Part shown: positions 48,046-64,000 of the stretch, one piece after another
How positions within the stretch are numbered: the stretch's first letter is position 1
How the letters are laid out: the number at the start of each line of letters is the position of its first letter
Assembly: GCA_009746045.1 (NCBI GenBank)
Contig: RPFO01000103.1
Coordinates: 844,143-908,142 of the forward strand
Source: Mesostigma viride
Taxonomy: Eukaryota; Streptophyta; Mesostigmatophyceae; Mesostigmatales; Mesostigmataceae
DNA: 64,000 nucleotides
Direction of reading: 5' to 3'
Program-made: the position numbers and the translations under genes
Notes under the pieces: model-generated
What the model was told of the DNA's origin: nothing
Database searches by the model: none
What the model saw: only the letters and a program-made list of their open reading frames with translations

Positions 48046-49873
48046 GATTAATTAATTAATTAATTAGACTCGTGCTCCCGTTGGGTCCGACTCACGGAGC
48101 ATTAACCCCGATGGATGGATGGGTGGGTGCAAACAGTCCTACCGGTCTATGCTATCTACATCAGCTACCTACGACATCTATCTAACAGCATTACTAACAA
48201 CAACATCTATCTCCACATCACTGCGCAAATTCTGCAATGCCATGTGCACGGACCTACAGCTTGCTCCCCTTGCCATGGAACCGTGGTTTCGCGCCGTCAT
48301 TCACGAATGCAATGCACGTCTCACCAGGCTTGATTACCGTCTCCAGCAGGTCCACCGCACCACCTGGCTCAACACCACAGATAAAGCACTTCTTGACCAA
48401 GTGCTTCAAGCAGGACTTTATCATCACGTGTGTTGACAAGAGTGCCAACAACTTTGCTTTTATATGCAAGAAGCACTACCTTGCTACTTTGCAACACGAG
48501 TTGGCGTCCAGCCCTACCTATGTTCAGCGTGCACAGTCCACCGCCAGTATCACTGCTGCTCATCGGGCTTTTCTGCACAGCCAAAACATTTTTGCTCGGG
48601 CATTCCTTAAGCGGCAGCGACGCGCCACCACCACTACGTTCCCATATCTGTATCTCACTCTTAAGCTGCACAAAACTCCTGTTGCTTTGCGCACCATTGC
48701 TGCGTCGCATTCAGCCCCACTGATGCCTCTCTCGAAACTCATCTGCCATGCTTTGAATGCTCTTCTCCCCGAAGCCAATGCATTATGGGTGGAGGTGCTT
48801 TCGAATGCCGGGTATCAGAATGCGCTGGTAGTTGGATCGTCATAGACTCAGCCCAAGTACGCCTACGCCTTGCCGCCCTTAGCCGTTCTAAGACAGCAGC
48901 AGAGAAACGTATACCTATGCCCATAGCCACCTATGATTTCACCACTCTATATACCACACTAGATTTGCACGATTTGAAAGCTCGTTTAGATAGCCTCCTT
49001 ACTCGTCTGTATGCACGTAGGCCTCACGGGCGCAACCACCTGCACGTGCGTGTTTCTCAGACCAAGCCCACGGCAACGTGGCTCTCAGGGATCGCGGCAG
49101 GTGCTATCGTGCGGGATGGTTATAATTATATTATCACGAAGGCTGACCTTGTTCATTGGATCTCTTATCTTGTTGATAACACCTTCATCTGTTTTGCGGG
49201 CAATGTATACCAACAAGCTATCGGCATCCCTATGGGCACTAACTGTGCCGGGCTCCTTGCAAACCTCTATCTATACACTTATGAGCTTGCATTCATGGAG
49301 AATCTCATTGCCTCAAACGATGATGTTCTCATCAGGCGTTTTATCCATACATGTCGATACATTGATGATGTCATCGCTTTCGACAACCCTGATTTCGCAA
49401 CCCATTTGTATATCACCGCTGGTCTGCCTGGCATCTACCCGCAAGCGTCCCTCACATTAAAGCTCACGTCGGAGGATACTCATTGCAATTACCTCGATCT
49501 TAACATTACCCATAACAAGAAGGGCTGGCGTACGGCTGTCTATGATAAGCGCAAGGATCCTAAATACCAGCAAATTCCTTTTATTCGTTACCCCGATATT
49601 CACAGTCTCCTTTCCCACACAGCAAAATATGGTGTTGTTCTTTCTCAGTTACATCGTTTTTCCCGTCTTTGTTCTTATCGTGTTGATTTCATCACGACTC
49701 TTGTTGAACTCTTGCAGCGTTTATTGGTCAAAGACTATGACCGAGCCATTATGCTCCGTCAAGTCCGATGTTTTTTGCAACGTCACCCACATCTGTTCGG
49801 TGCTGCCCCTTGGCACAAGCTCTACAAACAGGTCGTGGACCGGCTGGATCGCATAGTATCTCCGCACATCTGA
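48046..49873 (+). mobile_element. Penelope-like retroelement copy
   Basis: Begins at a (TTAA)n tract with ACTCGTGCTCCCGTTGG and CACGGAGCATTAACCCCGAT, a 5' end also present at 31652. It carries a reverse-transcriptase coding region. I find no GIY-YIG endonuclease downstream, no clear 3' terminus and no hammerhead-ribozyme core. The right boundary given is simply the end of coding similarity. Confidence 0.65.
48119..49873 (+). pseudogene. Reverse transcriptase (Penelope-like), two frameshifts
   Basis: The coding frame runs from about 48119, shifts near 48400 (into DFIITCVDKSANNFAFICKK) and shifts back near 48830 (into GSWIVIDSAQVRLRL), then stays open to the stop at 49873. Polymerase motifs are intact in the last part: ATYDFTTLYTTLD (motif A aspartate), IGIPMGTNCAGLLANLYLYT (motif B), CRYIDDVIAF (catalytic DD), YLDLNI and YDKRKDP. 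This set, particularly IPMGTNCA and the NNFAFICKK block, is typical of a reverse-transcriptase group related to Penelope elements that is common in algae and invertebrates. Neither shift lies in a long homopolymer, so real decay is more likely than sequencing error. Downstream of 49873 I see no further domain. Confidence 0.75.
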
Positions 49874-50884
49874 ACCCTGTGATGCCAGATCTCCTTTGCG
49901 GCCGTTCCGAGCTTGGCAGTGGATTCGTTGTCCACATCGTCGCGTCGCTGCCGCAACACGATGTTTTCTGGCATCCGCGGGCTTTTGGTTCCCGCCGCAC
50001 ATTTGAAAGTGCTGTCCTCCGGCTTTTTGCCTTTGCACCGTGTGCAGTTCTTGGACGTTTGGAATCATGGCATGGCTAACGTGATGACTGACTAGCTAGA
50101 CCTTTTCAGTGGTTTTCCATTTGCGGGTATTTCCTCGTAAATGGTGGGAGAGCGATCGCAGCAATGGTGCTCACCACTAGACACTCCCGGCCAGTTAGGC
50201 TCGAAACACATGCCCTGATCAAGCATGCTGTTTCCGGCCCCACCGTCTAGGTCATCTAGTCGCTCCACACGTAAGCCAGCCATAATTTCAATGCACAAGG
50301 ATACACATTTCCATCACCATTCGGGCGTCCCCAACATCTACTGCTCCAACCTAGGGCCATTGCTGGTACTTTTGACGTCATGAAAGCAGCGTTTTGGACT
50401 AGTGGAATATGATTTTACAGCATAAAAAGTCCATTTTATCATGAATGAACATGGCCAACAACCCCAAGTGCCCCTAAATTTCTCAATATTTGTAGATAAA
50501 TGCTACTTCTCATAAGCTAAACCTGCACAAATGCACAATTTGGGGCATGCATGTGAAAGTTTGAAGTACAAATTCGCAATAAGGTTTTACATTTTTCAAT
50601 TAATAATGGTATCTCATTCTTCAATCAATCAATTTGCAATCGTCCAAACAATTTATTCATTTCATACATGTCCGAATATGTTTAAAGAACACATGCAAGT
50701 GCTCAATCAGCGTGGATCCCCTTCGACGCGCCGCACCATATATACATTCGACACGTCAACCCTTCTACTAAACTGCCACTTCCAGAAGTCGCGGTCACTG
50801 ATCGAACTACTATGTACATCTGCATTTCTGAATGTTGCGGTGGGCAAACGTGCAAAACGCGACTTCGTGCAAAGTCCTTGCCCA
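49874..50884. other. AT-richer boundary region
   Basis: No gene seen. Composition drops to AT-rich from about 50380. It separates the retroelement from the compact minus-strand gene island. Confidence 0.5.
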
Positions 50885-53800
50885 TCATCGCTTGCCAGGT
50901 CGATGTGAAGGAATGTTGTCCCAGCTGGCGCCTTCCTTCAGGAGAGTAACATGTTCGCTGGCGAACTTCAGGGGGAAACGAAACCTTCTCTCGCTCTCAT
51001 CACTCCGACCGAGTTCGTACCCTTCATCAAACCATCTGATCACCACCTTCTCCTTCTCGCGGCCCAGGAGGGTGCCAAAGAGCAGAAAATCTTCCTTTTT
51101 GGGGTACTTGTGCTGCCAGTTTAGCCACATGTCCTCTACCCATTTCGAAGTCCAACCTCCGCGACCCAGTTTCGCGCCATCCATAAAGCGCATCCGGACG
51201 TCTGGCTCAACGTCCCTGATTGGGTCGACCGCTGTGCAAACCGCCCCCTTTTCCGCAACTGGCAGCCCCCCACCATCTCTGCCCTGACCACCACCCTTCT
51301 GCGGCTGTGAAGGTTCGTCGGCACCCTCCGTCTCCTGCCCCGCCCCTCGCCTGCCCCCTCCCCGACGTTTTGCCTTCTGCCCCTGCGCAGCCGCCGCCTC
51401 TGCCATCAACTCTTCGTACGTTTTTTCTGGCTGACCGCACGGTAAGGGTGGTGCGTGGGGTGCGTTGGGTGGGAGGGAGGCCCCTCCCGCCCCCGGTTGT
51501 GCAACTGGTGCGCCGACCGCGGCCTGGCCAACAACACGGCCGGCCTCTCCGGACACAGTCCCAAACGCGGATCCACGGGGAAACCGAACTGGAGTTTCTT
51601 CTTCGCCTTTCCCTGCACGTAAGCACATGCCAATTAACATGAATACGGAAGGGTCGTGTGAGAAATCAATGAAGCCATGGACTGATGCAAAAAAACTTAT
51701 GTAGAAATATATTAAGGTACTTATTAAACTCGTTTATTGAAAATGAAATTTACCGGCCGAATGTACCGTTGGAGCGTGGAAGGGCATCCTTGTTCGATCG
51801 AAGATATCCGTCAATGCGGTCAACGGTGCGTTCGATGTCCCTGGCGGCGCCTCAACATCGACCACCTCAGTCGGGCGCATCAATCCGGCAAACGCCGGCC
51901 CTCCACCTGAGACTGTCGGCGGACCCTCCACGTTACGAGCCTCCAATACCCTCTTCTGCAGTGGGGTGCTCGCAACAAAATCCGTGTCAGCCGACGGGAC
52001 CGGATCGTCATCCTCATTCAGCAGTATCGTGTCCGGGCATTGCTCCATCCCCGTCGGGCGGGGGGGCAAAGTCATCACAACCGTCCTTCCTGACGACGGT
52101 ACGGGATCGTCATCCATACCCAAAGAAACCGAGGCGAGGGCGGGGGTCCCCTCAACCGGGGGTCCCCATGAATCCTGACGAGGCCTCATTCCCATCTGTC
52201 GGACACGACCGCCTCCCGTAAATCGGGAACGCCCGCCGGCGCTACCAGTAACAGGCCGCGAGCCTGCTTCCTGCTGGCGATCCCCATCCTCATCACAGAT
52301 ACGCCCGCCGGCGTTACCAGTAACAGGCTGCGAGCCTCCTTCCTGCTGGCGATCCCCCTCCTCATCACAGATACGCCCGCCGGCGTTTCCAGTAACAGGC
52401 CGCGAGCCTCCTTCCTGCTGGCGATCCCCCTCCTCATCACAGATACGCCCGCCGGCGTTTCCAGTAACAGGCCGCGAGCCTCCCTCCCGCTGGCGATCCC
52501 CCTCCTCATCACAGATACGCCCGCCGGCGTTTCCAACGACAGGCCTCGAGTCTCCTTCACCAGCACGCTGGCGCTTACCTCCCCCCCTGTTGTCTTCATC
52601 CCCCCCCATTGTCTCATCACGCGAGCCTCCATCATCCCGACTGCGCTTTTTCCCTCCCCTTCCATCTCCTCCCCCGTCCCTCTCCCCCCTCCCCCTCCTC
52701 CTCCTCCCCATCCCCTTTCTCCCCCTCCGCCTGCCCCCACCCACCCGGGCGGGTGCCCCTCAGCAATATCCTCCTCCTCCTCCTCCTCTCCTCCTCCTCT
52801 CCTCCTCGTCCTCCTCGTCCTCCTCGTCCTCCTCATCCTCCTCCTCATCCTCATCCTCATCCACCTCCCCCACTTCCTCCTCCCCCTCTTCCCCCTTCTC
52901 CGAATCATCATCCTCATCAGACGAAGAATCGTCGTCGGCAAAGTAGGCGAGGTCTTCCCACCCATCTTCAACAAGCCAATATTTGATAAGGCGGACCAGG
53001 CGCTTCCACCGGCGGATATGGGCGGGCTCCCCGAACACCAGCAGAACTCTGCAGGGTCCCCTAAAAAGGGCGTTGGTCATCTTGTCAACCACATCCCACA
53101 CGACCGGGCTCAAATGCGAGGAGGGTTTGGGAATGTGGCGCTCCTCCGGAATGCAGTCTGGGTCCCACTTGCGCAGGTTCCTCCACTTCTCGTTGCTGTC
53201 AGCTGCCAGGTCCAGCACAGCAAACGCCTGGTCCTTCAGCGACCGAGGAATTTTGTCAGACCCCGTGCACAACTCGTCCACCACCTTCGTCACCACCAGA
53301 TCCTTTCTTTTTTCGTTTTCCTTCCATGTCATTGTCCTGTATGCGATCCAGTCGGATCCCATCCTCACCCCCTTCCAATCGCTGTAGGCTTCCAACCTGT
53401 CCCGCCACCCCTTCTTGGCCTTGGTAGTCCCCTCCTCCGCCGCCTCCTCGACCTCCTTCTCGACCTCCGCCGCCGCCTCCTTTGGCACACCCAGCAGATG
53501 TTTGGTCTTCACCCCCAAATCGTCATACAAATGACGGGGGTGGGAAGCGAGCAGCCCTCTCGGGAACTTCCAGTCCTTCTGGTCGACCACTTTCCTTTTA
53601 GCCGGCGGAAGGTCCCTCAGCGTGAGAATGATCGCCCTCGTGGCCGTGACGACCACCCGCCAAAAGTCTCTGGTCAGGCGGCAGTCGGCGATGAACTTGT
53701 CGAGGTCCGTGGCGAAGGTGCCCTTCAGCTTCACGCCAAACACGTGCTCCCTCACCAATACGGGGTTGAAGGTCCCGTCTAGTTGTTTGCAAGCGGCCAT

Positions 53801-56800
53801 CAGGGGGGGTTCTCCAGGAACTTGATGTGGGCGAATTGCACGGCCGCCTCTTTCAAATTCTTGGCGACTTCCATTATTTTTATCAGGTTGCTGGGAGGGG
53901 CCTCACAGGACATGATCGGCGCTTGGATCAGGCTGTCGAAGTACTGGAAACTCGCAAGTTCCCGATGCGCGGTGAAAATGGACAGTTCGTGCGCCTTGTC
54001 TTTAGGGCGCGCGTCAAGGAAGTCTTGCCGAGCCGCGATATCCTGTGCGATCGCCGGCTTGCCGTCGACAACGGGCTTCAAAGGGTCCTCACACCAGAAC
54101 AGCCAGCGCTGCATGAAGTTCTTCTGGTCCGGCCCCCACTTGTCGGTCTCTTCAGCCCCCCTGCCTTGTCGCCGGCGCCGTCCCCTTCGGCCTTGGCTTG
54201 CTCTCCTTTCTGCCAAAAGGGCTTCACAATCGCCCAGATCTTGCCGTACAGAGGAGTTGGGAGAGACACGCCCTTCCCTCTCTTGACGGGTCCATATGCC
54301 TGGTAGGCCCGGTGCACATCCCCCAGCGCTGAGCCCCACGTTGCCTTGGCTTGGGCTGTGTCCTCCGCGTTCATGGCGTTCCCGAGCTGCCTGACAATGC
54401 CGATCATCTCGCCGACTCGTTCGGAAACCTGCATCGCCGTATGGCAAAAACGCGCAGAGACACATCGACAGTCCTCCCAAATAAGCACAACTCAACTGAG
54501 AACAATAAAGCGACTCACAGAAACGCCGGCGGTCGCATCTTGACCAAAATATGGTGGAACATGAAAACCCCTTATAGAAACGCCGGCGGTCGCATCTTGA
54601 CCGAACTAATGGCATACTGAAATTAACACAAGAAAACCACTTATAGAAACGCCGGCGGTCGCAACCTGGCTTACCTTCTGTTCACGGATCTGCCACCAGG
54701 TCGGCAGGATGGTCTCACCCTTGAGCATCTGCACGTCCACCCCCCCGAAATTCGTCCAATCAGTTGCCCACTCCTCCAGCTTCGCCGCGGCCACGGTCTT
54801 CGTGACCTCCTGCTCCTTCCCTCCCCGCGCAACGACCCTGAGCTTTTCCGCCTTCATGAAACCATTCAGCATTGCCTTGTACCACACAGATCTTTGGTCC
54901 ACGGTCATATTTGGGGTGACCAGTTCGAATTTCACCGATTTGATGAGTGTGGTAAAGTGGTTCCCGTCCAGCACGAGAAAGCCGCAAATGGCTGGCGGCA
55001 ACGGTGGCTTTCTCTCGAGTGGAGCCATCTCCCAGGCGGACTTGCACAAACTGTCCAAAAGCGCGGCCTTTCTCACGTCCACGGGCTTAAGATCGTCCAG
55101 AATATCGGCCGGTCCTGTCAGAACCGCGGTGGAAGCAGCTTCGGCCATCTCCTTGGCCGAGCTCGTTCGCAGGTAGATATCAATCTCTTTGTCAGTCATT
55201 GCGCGAGCGTAGCCAGCCTTCATTGTCCGTGCCCCCCCCATCTCCCCGAAGAGTTGCGCGAGCTGACGCTGGGTACCTTCCTTTTTCGTCCATTCATGAA
55301 AACTGTTCGGGCACCGGTCAGCCAAAAACTGGAACGAGTACCGCCACACAGGAATCACCAGCTTGTCGTGGCCGTAGTCGGACTCCGAGTTTGCAAAAAT
55401 GGTGGCGTTCTGCTCGGCTCTAGACAGATGCAAGTCTCGTGCGAGGAGCTTCTGAGGCCCAACGAACAGGTTCCTTGTCCACACCCGATTTCGATGCACC
55501 AAGGCCTTGGACATGTCATCGAGGTCCCGAGGCTGAACGGCAAGCTGCTTCCGCAACCGTTTGCCCTTCGCGATCTCATCGTTCACATCCAGAATGTCAT
55601 CATCATCCTGCGACACCGGGGCCTTCTCCCATTTCTCAAGCAGAGACACGGGAGCATCCGCAACCTCCACCTCCTTTCCTTTCCCCTTTCCCTTCAGCGC
55701 CTTCCCCTTGTGGGTCGCAAGTGCTTCGGAGAGTCCCTTCTGGAATTCGTCGACGGCAGCAGTCCACGTACTCGCTACTTCCACATCCGAGCTGCGCGCG
55801 TGCTGGTCGAGGCTGATTGAGTACAGGATGGCCGCGTGGGTCGCCCTCTCGGCCTGCACGTACTGCAGTGATGCGAAACAATCAGGAAAGCATAACCAAA
55901 AGGAAAAAGTAAATGTCACACTTGAGAAACGCCGGCCGTCGCAACCTACATGAAACCTGAACCTCAACATCAAAGCCCCCCTCACAACAGAGGTACACTT
56001 GGCTCATTTCCCTCAACCGTGATGCGAAAAAATCAGGAAAACATAGTCAAAAGGAAGTGTCACACTTAAGAAACGCCGGCCGTCGCAACCTACATGAAAC
56101 CTGGATCTCAAGAAGCCCCCTCACAACAGAGGTACACTTACCTCATTCCCCTTAACAATGATAGGAAAAAATCAGGAAAGCATAACCAAAAGGAATAAAG
56201 TAAATGTCACACTTGAGAAACGCCGGCCGTCGCAACCTACATGAAACGTGGACCTCAAGAACAAAGACCCCCTCACAACAGAGGTAGACTTACCTCATTC
56301 CCCTCAACCGCTGCTGCTTCAGCCGCTTTCTTCGACCCCTTCGCGGTCTTCGGAGACTTGTCCCGGCGGGCATCGTGTTCCTTCAACATCTTGATCAGAG
56401 TCTTGGCGTCCGCCATCGTCACCGTCAACAGTTTACACTTCCTCTCCTTCGCTTTGCCCTCGAACAGGTTCTCCTGCATCCACTTTATCAAGGCCTTGGC
56501 GCTCGGGATCTCCTCAGGCTGTGTGGCGCCATCGGGCGCGCACGCATTCTTCACGATCAACTCAGCGACTTGATGGAGAGTCATCATCTGGTTCCGTACC
56601 TCAGGTGGGGCTGTTTCCGTTCTCACCTCGGCCACAACCCGCTTTGCCAACGTCCTCAGTTTATAAGCATCCGCTTGCTCCTTAAAGCGTGTCATTTTCG
56701 CAGTATCGCCGTCGCTTCCACCCACGCCCTCTGACACAGGCTCACCGACAGCGATAGCCCCCTCTCCCTGGAGATTTGCCCCACCCTGACGACCGGCTTC

Positions 56801-57985
56801 CTGCAAGAACATTATCAACGGAAGATCAAATAATGTAAGAAAAGTGTAAAGAAACGCCGGCCGTCGTAACTCTGTCCATTGAGGACGAACCTAAACTTTC
56901 GATTTAAGTCAACGGTAACTTACCCTTCCCCCCTCTGCAGTGGAACCACCGTAAGATCCACTTCCCCTCCTCTCACCGCCCTCCTGCTGCTCGAACGGAC
57001 TTCCCTGTAAAAATAGCAAACGCGATTGTCCATTCACAAGAAAAAAATTACTACAAAAATAAACAAGGATATACGCACGCAAACCATTTCATTACAAGTA
57101 AACTGCGGAGAGGAATCTGACGCACTCATGTACCTGGGTGCTTCCCGCCATTGAGCGGGCTTCTCTTGCACCCACATCCTCTTGCCGGCCCTGCGAACAT
57201 TTCAACGGAAAGTAAAAATCCGCTTAGTTGTCGGAAATGACATGTCTGGCGAATATTGCAAAAAAATGCTTATTGTATTTCACGACATCAATTAAATGGG
57301 CAGAGACTTACGAAGATCGGCCCGCCACCTTCCAAATTGCCCGGCGTCATTCGAAAACATCGAGGTCTTCCCCTCCATCGACCCCCTTCCCCCTTCCCCT
57401 TGGCCGCGGCGGGGGCATATCGCCCGTCGCGACCGGCTTGGAAGTCGCGGGGGGATCCCTTGCGGTTGAGGGCACTGCGGCCGACTCGTGCACACTCTCC
57501 CCCCTCTTTTGGGCTACTGCGGCAGGCGCGGCATGGGAGGGCGCGGCGGCTAGTGTCTCTGGCGCATTCTGAGCCAACCGACGCAACCTTAGCTCCTGCT
57601 GGAGCAGGGTTTCGAAACGAGGCATGAATGTGCGCTTGGAGGTATAAGGCACCTTGGCGACTTCAGGTTTGTCATTAAGGATGTCTTGGTACAGCGCGAA
57701 TTGCTGTTCACGAGTGCCATTCGCGAGTCGCTCAAACCGCTCAATCTGAATCCGCTTAACCGGATCGTCCACCATCTCAAGACCACCGTGGTACTCATCC
57801 TTCCCAGTGACCGCGGCAAAGCTGACACCAGATTCCACCATTGGGGGCGGCGTCCCCTCCCTTGCACGCTTGTGAGGAGGCTGTTGTGAGGAGGCGCCTT
57901 GGGCCTGAACTGCTTGCCCTTCAGACGCTTCCCCCCTAGGGGGAGAGTCGCCGACCACCTGCGATGTAGGGCCGCCCTTTTCCAT
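50885..57985 (-). CDS. Large unrecognised island protein, 7 exons, about 1,970 aa if frames are joined
   Basis: Exons: 57985-57312, 57190-57134, 57004-56924, 56800-56294, 55862-54675, 54428-51754 and 51612-50885, with GTAAG-type donors and CAG acceptors. Intron phases agree throughout, which argues for one gene. Three single-base frame breaks lie in homopolymers: T4 near 57355, G6 near 54158 and C7 at 53803-53809. One extra base at each would join the frames, except for one TGA at 52760-52762 after an acidic GAG/GAC microsatellite. As sequenced, successive frames meet as ATGA (57347-57350) and TGATG (53798-53802). Features, N to C: Pro/Ala-rich head, KKAAEAAAVEG helix, Lys-rich patch, LDGNHFTTLI reminiscent of the ParB/sulfiredoxin GNH turn (weak), Trp-rich segments, acidic tract, five 24-aa repeats (GNAGGRICDEEGDRQ), then WRKWxxGY-like basic C-terminus. 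The start ATG directly follows a TTGTTGCAG acceptor. No family recognised. Confidence 0.7.
52258..52570 (-). repeat. 72-bp coding repeat, about 4.5 copies
   Basis: Tandem units encode SRPVTGNAGGRICDEEGDRQ plus QEGG, in frame with the large protein. Copies differ by a few bases, mostly silent or conservative, and lie next to other homopolymer-rich coding sequence. Confidence 0.85.
54429..54674 (-). repeat. Intron with three 58-69 bp hairpin-bearing units
   Basis: This whole intron of the large island gene holds three spaced copies of the hairpin motif at 54519, 54576 and 54645, each followed (minus sense) by TTTCTRTRAG and a T-rich stretch. Confidence 0.8.
55863..56293 (-). repeat. Intron made of three about 146-bp copies that include the exon end and donor
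   Basis: On the minus strand each unit reads GGGGAATGAG, then the donor, CCTCTGTTGTGAGGGGG, ATGTAGGTTGCGACGGCCGG and CCTTTTGGTTATGCTTTCC. The true donor is GTAAGTCTACC at 56293. The second copy keeps a usable-looking GTAAGTGTACC near 56146. The third has lost the GT (CCAAGTGTACC, near 56000). Confidence 0.85.
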
Positions 57986-58208
57986 CTGCAACAACAAAAC
58001 ACAAAAATTGGAAAAATCATACGAGTCAGCAGGAAGATGCGCCCCACGTCGCAACTCAATACAAAGAATGCATCATTATGTCAAGGTACAAACAACGTTA
58101 TAATTCAGAAAGAACAGAGATTCATAACAAGAGAACGACGCACTAAAAGATGCGACCGCCGTCGCAACTTTCGTCAATTCACTCACTATACAAACAACTC
58201 TATGTCCC

Positions 58209-58943
58209 TCATAAAGAATCATTTGGCAAGGAAATGCAAAAAATTTCGGTTACCAACTCCGTCGACCGATCGGTGGTTCGCGAATGGGAAATCGCTGCTG
58301 ATTTTCGGTCGGGCCCTTCATGGTATTTTCGAAATCTCGAGGCAAGGTTGCGCGGAAGAGGGCCCTCCTTAATCATGCGTGCGATCGGACTGGCCATGGA
58401 AAGGGATACCTGGTTCCTGGACTGCCTTGCAAGGTCAACCATCTTGAAACTTCCCCTAAGAAGGAAATCAGACGTCAGACGGTTGAATATGCGTACGTCA
58501 AGATTTGACCAACCCATCATCCATTCAACCACCTTCTCCGCTGCATCATGGAAGACCTGGCTCTCATCCGCCATTCCTCCAGACCCAAACAAACAATCGG
58601 CCGTGTTGTCGTCGTGCCTCCTAAGGCGAATGTTCACGTCCTCTTTGTCATCATCCATTTCCGACAGCCGAATTACAGCCCTTTTGGCTCCGTCCACTCC
58701 ATCCTCAAGAAGGACGTCCATCTGCGCCCCTCCCACACAATTGTTGTCAACGTATTGTTGCAGATGACGGGAAATCATGTCCTTTCCGAAAGCTACGATG
58801 TGTTCCCCACACAGACCCATGTCGGTAATTGACAGCTTTTTACATTTCCTATCCCGGCACTTCTTTTCGGGATCCTTCTCAAAAATCCGGAAAACAGCGT
58901 CCTGATATGGACGTCCCCTTATGTCGACCGTCAGACTGGACAT
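58209..58943 (-). CDS. Island protein with one C-x4-C-x10-C-x2-H zinc finger, 244 aa
   Basis: Uninterrupted frame from ATG at 58943, which directly follows TTTCGCAG, to a stop at 58209. Residues about 29-45 read CRDRKCKKLSITDMGLCGEH, a single short zinc finger of the type repeated in WRKY19-like proteins. The rest is acidic to neutral with no recognised domain. The segment from about residue 105 on (DCLFGSGGMADESQVF, then VVEWMMGWSNLDVRIFNRL) looks globular. The neighbour at 59224-60099 has a similar finger and a similar leader, GGCCGGTATGTT...CGCAG|ATGTCC, so the two are probably relatives. Function unknown. Confidence 0.7.
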   Translation of the reverse strand: MSSLTVDIRGRPYQDAVFRIFEKDPEKKCRDRKCKKLSITDMGLCGEHIVAFGKDMISRHLQQYVDNNCVGGAQMDVLLEDGVDGAKRAVIRLSEMDDDKEDVNIRLRRHDDNTADCLFGSGGMADESQVFHDAAEKVVEWMMGWSNLDVRIFNRLTSDFLLRGSFKMVDLARQSRNQVSLSMASPIARMIKEGPLPRNLASRFRKYHEGPDRKSAAISHSRTTDRSTELVTEIFCISLPNDSL

Positions 58944-59223
58944 CTGCGAAACCAGAACATACCGGCCGCGAGTAGTTTATATTATTAAAAAAAACTGGCA
59001 TTTATTAAGTCATTTTCATCTATTTATGCGAGCTAAAATTTGAAGAAAATGCAACAAAGAAACGCCCTGGGGCGCAACTTCCTCAACAACCACTTTCTAC
59101 GTACAAACGAATGGCAATCATATCGACTACGATTGTCACTACATACGAATGTCCAGACAATATAATGTGTATGTAGAGGGGGGGCATTCAAAACCAGAGA
59201 AACGCCGGCGGGCGCAACTCATA

Positions 59224-60099
59224 TCAATATAGACTGTCCCGCGACTCGTTCCACTCTCTGCAGGTTTTGCAACAACCGATCGAGCGAACTCTCGGAACCT
59301 CTTTCGCCGCCATTTCATCGACACGAGCGAACATCTCTTCTTTGGCGGCCACCAACTTTGCCTCCTTGTTGCCGGTGTCAGGATAGATTTCGGACCTCCT
59401 AGTCTTCATCGGGGCCACTCTCTCCAAATACTCTGCACACAGAGAATCCTGCTCCTCCTCCACAATCGCCTTCACGCCGGATACAATCGCTTTGGCTTTT
59501 GTTTCCACGCGAAAATCGAACTCTCGTTGAGTTATCAGCGGAATGTCGGCGAGTGCAAAACACATACGCCGATAAAGTTCGCTTACATCCGTGTCACGCG
59601 AGTCGGCAAAAGGTGTCGTCATCAAAAAGCATCTCAAGCTACTCCAACCATTTTCTTGGGCGCCGGCAACGTAGCCTCCCTTTGCCAAGTCCGCACCTGT
59701 CGCGGAGTCTTTGACTATCCAATCTTCAAGGAAATACTCGTCTCCCCTGGTGAAATCAAAATTTACACCCAAGACCTCTCCGACAGTCATGTCCAGGCGA
59801 AGTCGCAAGGCCCCCCCCGCCAATCCAGGTCCGAGGGCGCCCGCCATTCCAAGTCCGCGACTGAGGGCATTTTCGATGTGACGAGAATGTTCTTCGTGCT
59901 TTCGGCAATACAAGTCAAATCCGAGAGCGGTTTTCTTGCAAGTGGACACATCACACTTGCGCGGCGCCCCTATTGAGCGAGCAACACTCTGAATGACAGT
60001 GGCAACCGCTTGGTGTTGTTGAAGTCGTTGCCAATCCTCCATCAGGAGGTGACTAGACGAATCGGACGAATCTTCCGTCGAACCGGACATCTGCGACAA
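59224..60099 (-). CDS. Island protein with one C-x4-C-x10-C-x2-H zinc finger, 291 aa
   Basis: Uninterrupted frame starting at ATG 60099, immediately after TTGTCGCAG. Ser/Asp-rich N-terminus, then CDVSTCKKTALGFDLYCRKH at about residues 50-69, the same finger spacing as the protein at 58209-58943. A Gly-rich segment follows (GLGMAGALGPGLAGGALRLR), then an acidic globular region, a helical part with EEEQDSLCAEYLERV, and a C-terminal CCKTC. A hairpin motif starts 5-8 nt past the TGA stop. The region upstream was invaded by a TIR element that ends about 75 nt before the start codon. Function unknown. Confidence 0.7.
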   Translation of the reverse strand: MSQMSGSTEDSSDSSSHLLMEDWQRLQQHQAVATVIQSVARSIGAPRKCDVSTCKKTALGFDLYCRKHEEHSRHIENALSRGLGMAGALGPGLAGGALRLRLDMTVGEVLGVNFDFTRGDEYFLEDWIVKDSATGADLAKGGYVAGAQENGWSSLRCFLMTTPFADSRDTDVSELYRRMCFALADIPLITQREFDFRVETKAKAIVSGVKAIVEEEQDSLCAEYLERVAPMKTRRSEIYPDTGNKEAKLVAAKEEMFARVDEMAAKEVPRVRSIGCCKTCREWNESRDSLY

Positions 60100-60172
60100 G
60101 TTACGATAACATACCGGCCCCGGAAAATAAAATTCAAAAAACGTTTTGAAATTTTTTTATTGTACTTGTTTA

Positions 60173-61894
60173 TTAACTCGTCGTCTGTCCCAACTCAGTC
60201 CTCACAGGAGGACTGAGTTGACAATTTTCAACCGCGTGTAGCGACTAGGTGGGGGGTCCATCCCAAATGTTTTGATGTGGATCTGGGGTGTACTAGATAT
60301 CATTTTGTTGGCAAAAAATACTGCATATGTGAAAACTTGACCCGAACACCTGAAAATTACACGGACGTTGGGCGCCCCTCGCGAATTTGCATTTTTCGGG
60401 ATGAGAACGAGTGGGAAAATTTCAATCAAATCCTGGTGCATGAAGAAAAATATAGGCATGTAAACAACATAGTTCTTGAAGCGTGGCAAAAAACTGGGCT
60501 CCATTTGGCCACTGCAACTGCCTGAAACAATTAAAAAACTCTCAGTCCTCAGGAGAGGAATGGGGCTTTTGCTAACTTTGCTAGCATGTAAGTGCGGTCA
60601 TACTACATCACCGTGGCCACCAACCATCCCAATCAACTCATTTCCCTTCAAGCATTACAGGACAACACACTTGCATCATCATACTTCAGGTATATCATAC
60701 CTTATCATGTAGTGAGAGCCTATGCATGCATGTAGGGAATGGGCTTGGATACCTACCAACAAAAGGGTTATGTTATAAGTGCCAACCACCAATATAATGG
60801 GTAGGTTAAGCATATTTCCATTGTTTCAAACAACAATAGATATGGCTATAACTGTGTTGCTTTGCCATGATGTGGCCAACATAGTTGCTGGCACATGATG
60901 GCAGTGGTTTGTCACCAAGACTTTTCACTCACCCGTAAAAGCTTGAATGCACCCTTGACGCAGCCCGTGGCCACACAATCATGCAGTATGAACGTAGCAA
61001 AAGAATAACTAACATCTATGAAGGTGTTTAAACCTGCACAGCTCCTAAAACCCTGCACAACTACACTGGGTTAAGGCAAATGCCTGCTAACATCATCTGA
61101 AAAGGGGGTTTTAGAGAGGGGCAGGCAACGGTCAAGAAAGAGCATCAAGACTTGAACCTGACAACGCCTCGCAAGCTTAAACTCATGTACGAACATCAAG
61201 GAACGAAGAGGCAACGATTATCCGGCTTTACCTGGCACGGCTGGCGTTACCTTGGCCCAGGCGGTGCCCGCAAAAGTGGCACTTTGCGGCACATAGACCA
61301 TGACGTGACAGAATGGTCGAGATCATCAAATCTATACTGTCACTCAATATATTCTAATACAATTCATGTTAAAATGTAGAAAGAAACCTATCAGCCATTG
61401 AAATTGCGCCGGAAAGCAAGCGCAGTAATCAATTCCGTCGACCTGCCTTATCGCAGTTTTTTCCAGCAAGAACAGTGCCGACACCGGGTAAATCGCATCC
61501 CCGCGAGCTAAAAATTGATTTATATCATCTTTAGGGCATGTTAAATCTATTTACTGAGTTTGGACGGCTAAATCGTCCGCAAACGTAAACTGCATGCATG
61601 GGCGCGAGCCGCCATGGCTAGGTCGTGCATTTCCGGAACTCGCGTTTCACGTGGAAAAGTACCCTTACCACCTGTACTTTGACCGTACATTTAGCCGCTC
61701 ATACCAAATCCAAAAAATCCCAAAAATATGTCCAAGAAAGATCTTTTCACGTAGTATTTGAATCAATTTTGAGAGAAATTTTTTGTCAAACATTCTGACC
61801 GGGGCGAATTTTCTACGAAACCCAAAAACTCGGTCCTCTAGAGAGGACTGAGTTCAACTCAGTCCTCCAGGACCAGGGACAGACGACGAGTTAA
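60173..61894. mobile_element. TIR-flanked non-autonomous DNA element, 1.7 kb
   Basis: Perfect 19-bp inverted ends: TTAACTCGTCGTCTGTCCC at 60173-60191 and its complement at 61876-61894. They are flanked by TA on both sides; alternatively the TTAA itself is the duplicated target. Inside each end are palindromic AACTCAGTCCTC / GAGGACTGAGTT blocks. The interior has only short open frames (60277-60525 and 61152-61379) with no transposase motif. Confidence 0.8.
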
Positions 61895-61972
61895 TACGAA
61901 GGTTTAAATTTGGCGCAAAGAAACGCCCCAAGGCGCAACTTGTCGAACAGCAATATGGCGATAAAACATTAT

Positions 61973-62173
61973 CTATTCAATGTGCGATTGATGTGCTGAA
62001 ACCTTCCAGACTTTGACACTGTCCGGTATCACCGGACTCGGACGAGGAGTCGAATCGGAAGCGAGCCAGTAATCCTCGACTATTTTTTTGATGTACAATG
62101 GAAGACTCCTTCCATTATGTCGAAGTGTGTCGGTCCTTTGCCTTTTGGCCAAACTCTCCTTAACCTCCACCAT
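61973..62173 (-). CDS. Small basic island protein, 66 aa
   Basis: ATG at 62173 lies 3 nt after a CTACGCGCAG acceptor. The product (MVEVKESLAKRQRTDTLRHN...) is basic with a DYWLASDSTPRPSPVIPDS segment. The stop of the MYND gene is only about 93 nt upstream. A hairpin motif follows the stop at 61919-61940. It could be a separate gene or the last exon of something larger. Confidence 0.5.
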   Translation of the reverse strand: MVEVKESLAKRQRTDTLRHNGRSLPLYIKKIVEDYWLASDSTPRPSPVIPDSVKVWKVSAHQSHIE

Positions 62174-62269
62174 TTCCTGCGCGTAGGAGGAAAATGATAC
62201 GTTATAACATTAATTTATTAAAAATAACATCATATATAACAAGTTATTACTCTACATTTCAAGTTTTTT

Positions 62270-63025
62270 CTAAGAGGCAGAGCCGTCGTGGAAGTTGAAG
62301 GAGAAGTCGACATCAGACCCCATAGTTTTATCCAGTATCGTCGTCACGTTAACCCCCCACTTCACCCCTGCCAGCACCTCCCTCGCTTGCCTCAGACGTT
62401 CGCATCTATCCTTATGCCTACTCCAGTCCGCACGCTGGCACTCCTCACTGCAATATCTGGCATCCCTACATCCTCTACACCACTTGATATGAGGTCCTGT
62501 TTCGCACCCACACCCCTCCTTGGAGCACTTTCGCGTACTACGCATGCGATCCCCATCCCTCACGATCGGGTCAGAGAGCAAGAAAAAGTTCATGTTGAGG
62601 GGTACTGCCCCTACACATGCATCAGCCCTCACGCGCAGAGAATGCGTAACATTCGGGTAAAATGCGCGCCCGTAGGTGCACCCAAGCTGAGCCCCTTCCT
62701 CTTCCCCCAACTCTATCTTTGGCCCCTTTGTAATGAACGACACCAAAAGGCGGAACTCCGTCCTTGGGTCTATGGGCACTCTTAGATCCATCTGTGGTCT
62801 GAAAAAACCCTCTTGAATACAGAAGTTCATATCAGCTAGCTGGGCGTACATAATTCTCTCCATTTGGCTGAACGAATCAAACGCCAATAAAACGGCCAAG
62901 TGGCGGCCTGTCCTCTCCTGCGCGACTCGAACTTCCTCGAATATGACACGCGACAGGAAGCGAACTTGTTTGAAAACGTTTTGAAGGACGCTTCCGTAGA
63001 CTTCATTCACGATCTCGGACTCCAT
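62270..63025 (-). CDS. Island protein with MYND-type zinc finger, 251 aa
   Basis: ATG at 63025 directly follows TTTTTTCCCTGAAAAAG. The N-terminal 140 residues include ERTGRHLAVLLAFDSFSQME and an acidic region with no recognised fold. At about residues 176-214 lies a MYND-like finger: CSKEGC, then WCRGC, RYCSEECQRADW and RHKDRC, with all Cys/His ligands present. MYND fingers bind proline-rich partners in chromatin and signalling proteins and are frequent in some large DNA viruses and protists. The TAG stop is followed by AATAAATTAATGTTAT, a possible AATAAA polyadenylation signal also present before this gene. Confidence 0.75.
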   Translation of the reverse strand: MESEIVNEVYGSVLQNVFKQVRFLSRVIFEEVRVAQERTGRHLAVLLAFDSFSQMERIMYAQLADMNFCIQEGFFRPQMDLRVPIDPRTEFRLLVSFITKGPKIELGEEEGAQLGCTYGRAFYPNVTHSLRVRADACVGAVPLNMNFFLLSDPIVRDGDRMRSTRKCSKEGCGCETGPHIKWCRGCRDARYCSEECQRADWSRHKDRCERLRQAREVLAGVKWGVNVTTILDKTMGSDVDFSFNFHDGSAS

Positions 63026-63140
63026 CTTTTTCAGGGAAAAAACGAACAAAAAAATTCATAAACATTAATTTATTATTTTATAATAACAAGTTACTATTCC
63101 TCGGAATAGTTTTTTTTTATCCATTCCACAAACGCGTTTG

Positions 63141-63332
63141 TCACAAACACCTTCCATGCTTTCTCAAGAACTTGTCCCCCTGATGTTTTGAGTATTCAAA
63201 CTCGTCATCCGAAGAAACCAACTCCGGCACATCCTCCGAGAGGGTCTCTAAATTGTCATCGGCTTTCCTTTTGCGCTTGTGGTTTCCGAAGCATTTTTTT
63301 GGTTCTTCTTCTGACATTTGTTCTGCAACCAT
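63141..63332 (-). CDS. Small acidic island protein with basic patch
   Basis: Frame from ATG 63332, or from the second ATG (MSEEEPKKCF) 5 nt after a GGTTGCAG acceptor; the latter fits the pattern of the other island genes. A nuclear-localisation-like HKRKRKADD is followed by an acidic stretch (ETLSEDVPELVSSDDEFE). The 3' flank has a small perfect hairpin CTATTCC-TC-GGAATAG near 63091. No homologue recognised, and it may be only part of a gene. Confidence 0.45.
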   Translation of the reverse strand: MVAEQMSEEEPKKCFGNHKRKRKADDNLETLSEDVPELVSSDDEFEYSKHQGDKFLRKHGRCL

Positions 63333-63439
63333 GGAGTCATTTCGAGGGGGTGTGGTTTAACGGGTGCAGATTTAAAGTAATTTGTTTTAGGTGAACGATG
63401 GTAAAACTTCATTAGATATTTTAAACGAACGAGAAGCAA

Positions 63440-63842
63440 CAGAAACGACGGCGGGCGTAACTATCATGGGAAACTTTGATATCACAAGATCACAATGGAC
63501 ACGAACGCGCTGCAACTTTCACGACATATTCTTCGACATCGAAAATAAAAAGAAACGACGGCGGGCGTAACTATCATGAAACATTGATCTTACAAGAAGC
63601 TGACGGGGATGCAACTTTCACGACAAACACTTCGACATCGAAGATGCAAAAGAAACGACGGCGGCGTAACTATCATGGAAAGATTGAGCTTACAAGATGA
63701 CAAGTTAACTGACGGGGTGCATCTTTCACGAGATATATTTCGACATCGAAAAGGCAAAAGAAACGACGGCGGGCGTAACTAGCACAACCAATGTTGGTCA
63801 TGTGCTCTTCCAGTAAGACAAGAAACGACGGCGGGCGTAACT
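63440..63842. repeat. About 105-bp tandem array carrying hairpin motifs
   Basis: Five hairpin motifs (63443, 63551, 63651, 63759, 63821) in this subarray share the variant AAACGACGGCGGGCGTAACT. The units also share GCAACTTTCACGACA and TTCGACATCGAAAA blocks. It lies upstream of the 63141-63332 gene. Confidence 0.8.
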
Positions 63843-63889
63843 ATCACACGGTCCAGGAAGAGTGACGTTGGCAGAATTATGGTGTTTGT

Positions 63890-64000
63890 AAAAGGGGGGG
63901 GGGGTGAGAGAGAGAGAAGAGAGGAGAGAGGAGAGGGAGGGAGATTGAGAGATAGAAAATAGGAGAGAGAAGGGGTGAGGAGAGAGGAGGAGAGAGAGAG
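63890..64000. repeat. G-run and GA-rich microsatellite at window end
   Basis: A poly-G run at about 63893-63904 followed by irregular GAGA/GGAGAG units to the end. Confidence 0.85.

Follow-up and report, generated by a model that had tools for sequence, protein, structure and literature searches.

En/Spm (CACTA) transposons carry many short subterminal motifs that are bound by TnpA and clustered near the ends. In Arabidopsis, VANC21 occupies the introns, the intergenic and the terminal non-coding parts of the transposon VANDAL21, on short tandem-repeat motifs, and methylation is lost there (PMC5735166, PMC10398659). Composite Sola2 elements carry foreign genes beside their transposase (PMC3627910). 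Teratorn is a piggyBac-herpesvirus fusion of 41-182 kb with 18-bp terminal inverted repeats (TIRs) (PMC6431247). We analysed a stretch of 64,000 nucleotides from the streptophyte Mesostigma viride (C1480:844143-908142; the window), in which a compact island of genes is dotted with a 22-bp dyad motif. This island forms one arm (arm 1) of a giant DNA transposon with TIRs, whose other arm (arm 2) is a second sequence found elsewhere in the genome. The dyad, with a strict 4-bp spacer, sits in the non-coding parts of both arms and is constant in the copies compared.

Two arms of one transposon and the distribution of the dyads

The assembly searched comprises 439.9 Mb in 2,243 contigs. Proteins of the island matched Mesostigma viride gene models, with identities up to 100% (P0018). 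Arm 1 was compared between the window copy and five further copies, two on contig C1, two on C2 and one on C5. Outside base 50323 the flanks look unrelated in all six; inward, a tract rich in purines follows in the copies, and often gaps as well. The 27-bp end occurs, with up to two mismatches, at 554 places in the assembly (control, 0). The second sequence was found through nine loci chosen for a dyad variant away from the islands. It has two things in common with the island, the dyads and the initial 27 bases of the end, and otherwise short matches at chance level; further in, it weakly matches the island end region (77% over 181 bases). Thirty end loci were read, and they divided evenly into 15 that begin as the island does and 15 that begin as the second sequence does. 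Among the places listed, facing ends formed 15 pairs on single contigs, 12 of them spaced 24-41 kb and three 63-110 kb. Every one of the six pairs that we read joined an island end with a second-sequence end. A perfect 4-bp target duplication flanked five of the six (AGAT, CGAT, TGGC, AACA, ATTC), one pair was without it, and wrong pairings gave none in three. The shared 27-bp end, the facing pairs and the target duplications show the island and the second sequence to be opposite arms of a single transposon.

The strict dyad has 6,844 matches in the assembly, compared with five for the pattern read backwards and 12 for a five-base spacer, several of which resemble dyads with one extra base. 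Divided by 277 end pairs, this is a genome-wide average of about 25 dyads per pair. The matches listed out of the 6,844 comprise 57 distinct places within the first 2.93 Mb of C1. Facing ends enclose 51 of them, and the other six are in a lone arm 2 beside an end. Among these matches, no dyad falls on C1 up to 1.33 Mb, at 1.367-2.256 Mb or at 2.261-2.822 Mb. An earlier note on the window had proposed a common signal for processing, silencing or transposition that belongs with this set of genes, and had named genome-wide hits unrelated to the set as one outcome that would refute the idea. The link to the genes holds: all 57 places are inside copies of the element that carries them, and none among the matches listed is unrelated to them.

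The element at C1:1332767-1366939 contains 29 dyads, with none in its middle 17 kb. In arm 2, some dyads fall within presumed introns (L022 2904, 3804, 3876), and six more, three of them strict and three near matches, form an upstream array. Dyads are absent from the outermost 1.9 kb of arm 1 and 1.4 kb of arm 2. This arrangement bears on the idea that a transposase or accessory protein folds both arms together through the dyads, as at the subterminal TnpA sites of En/Spm. Restriction of the listed dyads to the transposon, their presence in both arms and the fact that within an arm all of them point one way with respect to the end would suit such sites. Subterminal transposase sites normally cluster near the ends, however, and here introns and intergenic gaps far inside the arms are preferred and the ends are empty. 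With many dyads in introns, between genes and in upstream arrays of both arms, and the ends left bare, the pattern does not resemble transposase end sites; it resembles sites through which a factor covers the element. We regard a role in transposition as improbable.

DNA dyad or RNA hairpin

The dyad consensus is RGWWRCGMC-N4-GKCGYWWCY (22 bp). Its left and right half-sites, each read toward the centre, follow one consensus and vary independently of each other. With the original pattern and up to three mismatches, we found 19 matches in the window, compared with 0.08 expected by chance; 16 lie within 54519-63842, all on the minus (sense) strand, and three in a coding repeat at 52369-52534. The strict dyad gave 20 matches, the first at 52297. 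Sixteen of these were in the earlier note already and four are in the coding repeat, an independent hit since only non-coding copies had served to derive the consensus. When the spacer was set to 0-3 or 5-8 bases, the window yielded one match altogether, the copy at 63651 with its 3-base spacer. This one-base deletion is confined to the window copy, and all five other copies have the normal spacer. The 17 copies counted previously at 54519-63842 were therefore recovered, 16 by pattern search and the one at 63651 with its shorter spacer, and their placement soon after three stop codons and within three introns was correct.

Two statements about their placement have to be amended. Dyads were said to mark nearly every intron and gene boundary, which is too strong; they are present in three introns of the large gene and at three of five gene boundaries, and absent from the other three of its six introns and the other two boundaries. 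Nor are they always outside coding sequence, since four strict dyads and a weaker fifth lie in a 72-bp coding repeat, oriented opposite to the non-coding ones. The 17 non-coding dyads represent nine separate places, those of intron I5 (three), intron I4 (three) and the upstream array (five) being local tandem duplications. When tandem copies are counted once, nine of ten places are non-coding, though non-coding DNA makes up 27% of the arm (p = 5e-5).

The earlier note had seen paired variation of stem bases in several copies, had read it as the mark of an RNA hairpin or a paired protein site, and had named the lack of an excess of paired substitutions as a second refuting outcome. In ten distinct copies, the nine-pair stem was paired in 74.4% of cells, compared with 74.3% in column shuffles, and the covariation score was matched by 238 of 500 shuffles. 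One pair showed a double change, and 421 of 500 shuffles matched this count of compensatory changes. Paired substitutions were thus not in excess, and covariation of an RNA hairpin is not supported. Columns 8 and 15 combine as A-G in five copies, C-G in three, A-T in one and C-T in one, which is the mix expected if each of two half-sites tolerates A or C. Of the two versions named in the earlier note, a putative paired protein site fits best.

A sense-strand signal in RNA, serving splicing, export from the nucleus or RNA stability, has some points in its favor. Relative to the genes, the 17 non-coding dyads of the window all run in one sense, as do the nine copies, strict or near, that were read in arm 2; moreover, four of the ten distinct copies form a better fold than the majority of their shuffles. 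The genes of both arms point to the end, so that the direction of transcription and the direction of the end are inseparable. The other six copies fold no better than shuffles, the window has no Rfam match, the distance to splice sites or stops is not fixed, and the coding copies are reversed. Together with the lack of covariation, these results make an RNA-level motif quite unlikely.

Constancy of the dyads and their possible role

Across the six arm-1 copies, the 17 dyads had no variable column, neither among 306 half-site columns nor among 68 spacer columns (0/374 together). Elsewhere, 52 of 1,303 columns varied in the 50-base flanks and 52 of 1,474 in other non-coding DNA (104/2,777 together), as did 406 of 8,582 coding columns. 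Compared with the non-coding comparison columns, the invariance of the half-sites is significant (p = 2e-5 and 3e-5). Two dyads have single-base gaps, the one at 63651 in the window copy and the one at 63821 in copy D. Among the four coding dyads, one varies between copies and one is missing from three copies. Within tandem-duplicated units, 344 of 352 cells were identical in the dyads and 733 of 1,321 in the flanks. Multiplication of some copies by local tandem duplication would agree with passive, functionless repeats spread by duplication. This explanation is most improbable for dyads that stay invariant while their flanks change, and no flanking repeat common to dyads of different places was found.

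We propose that every dyad serves as a DNA site to which a dimeric, sequence-specific factor binds, and that this factor is probably encoded by the element itself and keeps the element genes expressed or unsilenced in the manner of VANC; we give this reading a probability of roughly 0.4. The putative factor might be the product of the MYND gene g2, of one of the Cys/His-rich genes g4 and g5, or of a gene situated in the element's middle part. Spread over introns, gaps and upstream arrays, it would act on the element genes as VANC proteins do for VANDAL transposons, and local tandem duplication would multiply its sites. In a stronger form, which we consider doubtful, the element may have evolved a VANC-like system independently, in which its own protein on 25-29 dyad sites would shield all element genes from silencing and spare the rest of the genome.

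Several observations weigh against a protective DNA site. That the non-coding dyads read all point the same way is superfluous for a symmetric site, and four strict dyads stand in coding DNA. The arm-1 copies were picked through dyads of the AACT type, a selection that favors intact sites of this type; the eight of the 17 dyads that belong to other types were equally invariant. A gap-flanked stretch of locus L015 (about 4.7-10 kb), about 84% identical to the arm, has lost most dyads, and its dyad arms differ at 21.6% of columns compared with 17.5% for other non-coding columns. With its many single-base indels, like those of uncorrected long reads, this stretch looks like read error. The observed/expected ratio of CpG was 1.28 in arm-1 non-coding DNA (1.05 without the dyads), 0.93 in coding DNA and 0.68 in window positions 1-50322. 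CpG transitions between copies were slightly raised, at 0.0063 vs. 0.0054 per site in arm 1 and 0.0101 vs. 0.0074 in arm 2. These figures would suit low methylation, but they may reflect no more than youth of the element.

Because the dyads are invariant between copies, occur in introns and in gaps before gene starts, and stand as arrays ahead of g1 and ahead of the open reading frame (ORF) in arm 2, they could also be ordinary sites of a host or element transcription factor, serving as promoter and intronic enhancer elements with no anti-silencing role. The empty introns and gene boundaries and the dyads in coding DNA speak against it. A host factor should moreover have further sites, and none was seen outside the element among the matches listed. 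We consider this explanation rather unlikely.

Features of the two arms and comparison with known transposons

The features of arm 1 in the window are collected in Table 1. The exon limits of the large gene g6 were set by hand. For some exons and for both small ORFs, the limits used in the counts of non-coding places and of variable columns are approximate.

Table 1. Dyads, genes and other features of arm 1 in the window
Feature	Position	Strand	Remark
Arm 1 as far as the window reaches	50323..64000	.	five other copies align from exactly 50323; next 10 kb all N
27-bp terminal repeat GGGCGTCCCCAACATCTACTGCTCCAA	50323..50349	+	common to both arms
Large gene g6	50885..57985	-	seven exons, six introns (by hand); frame shifted at several points in this copy
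72-bp coding tandem repeat	52225..52558	-	strict dyads 52297, 52369, 52441, 52513; weaker at 52225
Three dyads (54519, 54576, 54645)	54519..54666	-	intron I5 of large gene
Three dyads (55925, 56069, 56216)	55925..56237	-	intron I4; triplicated unit of about 147 bp
One dyad	56850..56871	-	intron I3
Two dyads (58035, 58148)	58035..58169	-	between g5 and large gene
Gene g5	58209..58943	-	Cys/His-rich stretch near N-terminus (by eye)
Two dyads (59058, 59198)	59058..59219	-	between g4 and g5
Gene g4	59224..60090	-	Cys/His-rich stretch (by eye)
One dyad	61919..61940	-	between g3 and g4
Small ORF g3	61973..62173	-	frame read
Gene g2, MYND zinc finger	62270..63025	-	PF01753, E 2.5e-7, 31.1 bits vs. 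cut-off 22.7; PDB sequence matches
Small ORF g1	63141..63332	-	frame read
Upstream array of five dyads (63441, 63551, 63651 with 3-base spacer, 63759, 63821)	63441..63842	-	

In a Pfam scan of ten window proteins, the MYND domain alone was above the cut-off. No family match was found for g6; two of its parts, used as queries, found 59 and 39 proteins. The g5 protein (58212-58943) is 97% identical to one listed under Prorocentrum lima (P0001), which points to contamination of that data set or to transfer. Immediately before their ATG, g4 and g5 have a common short leader, GGTATGTT...CGCAG (60090-60122 and 58943-58970), which may be a very short 5' intron or a start signal common to both genes. 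Arm 2 contains a long ORF that reads toward its end, as the island genes do. By eye only, its D-D-D/E-like blocks resemble a DDE transposase; it had no match in Pfam or among PDB sequences, and its low-confidence structure model, with a predicted local distance difference test (pLDDT) of 42, gave no clear match.

Some further insertions and neighbors were noted. A 1.7-kb insertion at 60174-61893, missing from all five other arm copies, has a TTAA target duplication and inverted ends (CTCGTCGTCTGTCCC) and is piggyBac-like in these traits. One copy of arm 2 (L027 and L030, about 6.83-13.15 kb joined) contains a 6.3-kb insertion with PHD-like and reverse-transcriptase-like frames by eye. A reverse-transcriptase-like frame at about 48200-50050, which looks Penelope-like, adjoins the element. 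On contigs C156, C160, C190 and C366, facing ends are 31-37 kb apart with the left member less than 1 kb from the contig start.

The analysis defines a mobile element whose ends number 554 and whose dyads, which resemble binding sites, number 6,844; parts of the element have been annotated as dozens of Mesostigma genes. It resembles En/Spm in its many short element-specific sites and differs in that its ends are free of dyads. Mutator-like elements, among them VANDAL, make target duplications of about 9 bp, whereas those found here are of 4 bp. Sola2 has TIRs and 4-bp target duplications as well, but its duplications are AT-rich and those found here are not, and the present element is several times larger (PMC3627910). 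Like Teratorn, it spans tens of kilobases, with many genes and short TIRs (PMC6431247); unlike in Teratorn, no viral gene was found in the parts of the element that were read, its arms. With VANDAL and its VANC proteins it has in common short element-specific motifs, partly in tandem, in the introns, the intergenic and other non-coding parts of a multi-gene DNA transposon, although VANC motifs are of about 8-9 bases and the dyad is of 22 bp with a strict spacer (PMC5735166, PMC10398659). If the dyads recruit a protecting factor, the sequence-specific anti-silencing described for Arabidopsis VANDALs would extend to a giant transposon of an early-branching streptophyte. The likeness to VANC and VANDAL would then be one of mode of working and would not imply relatedness.

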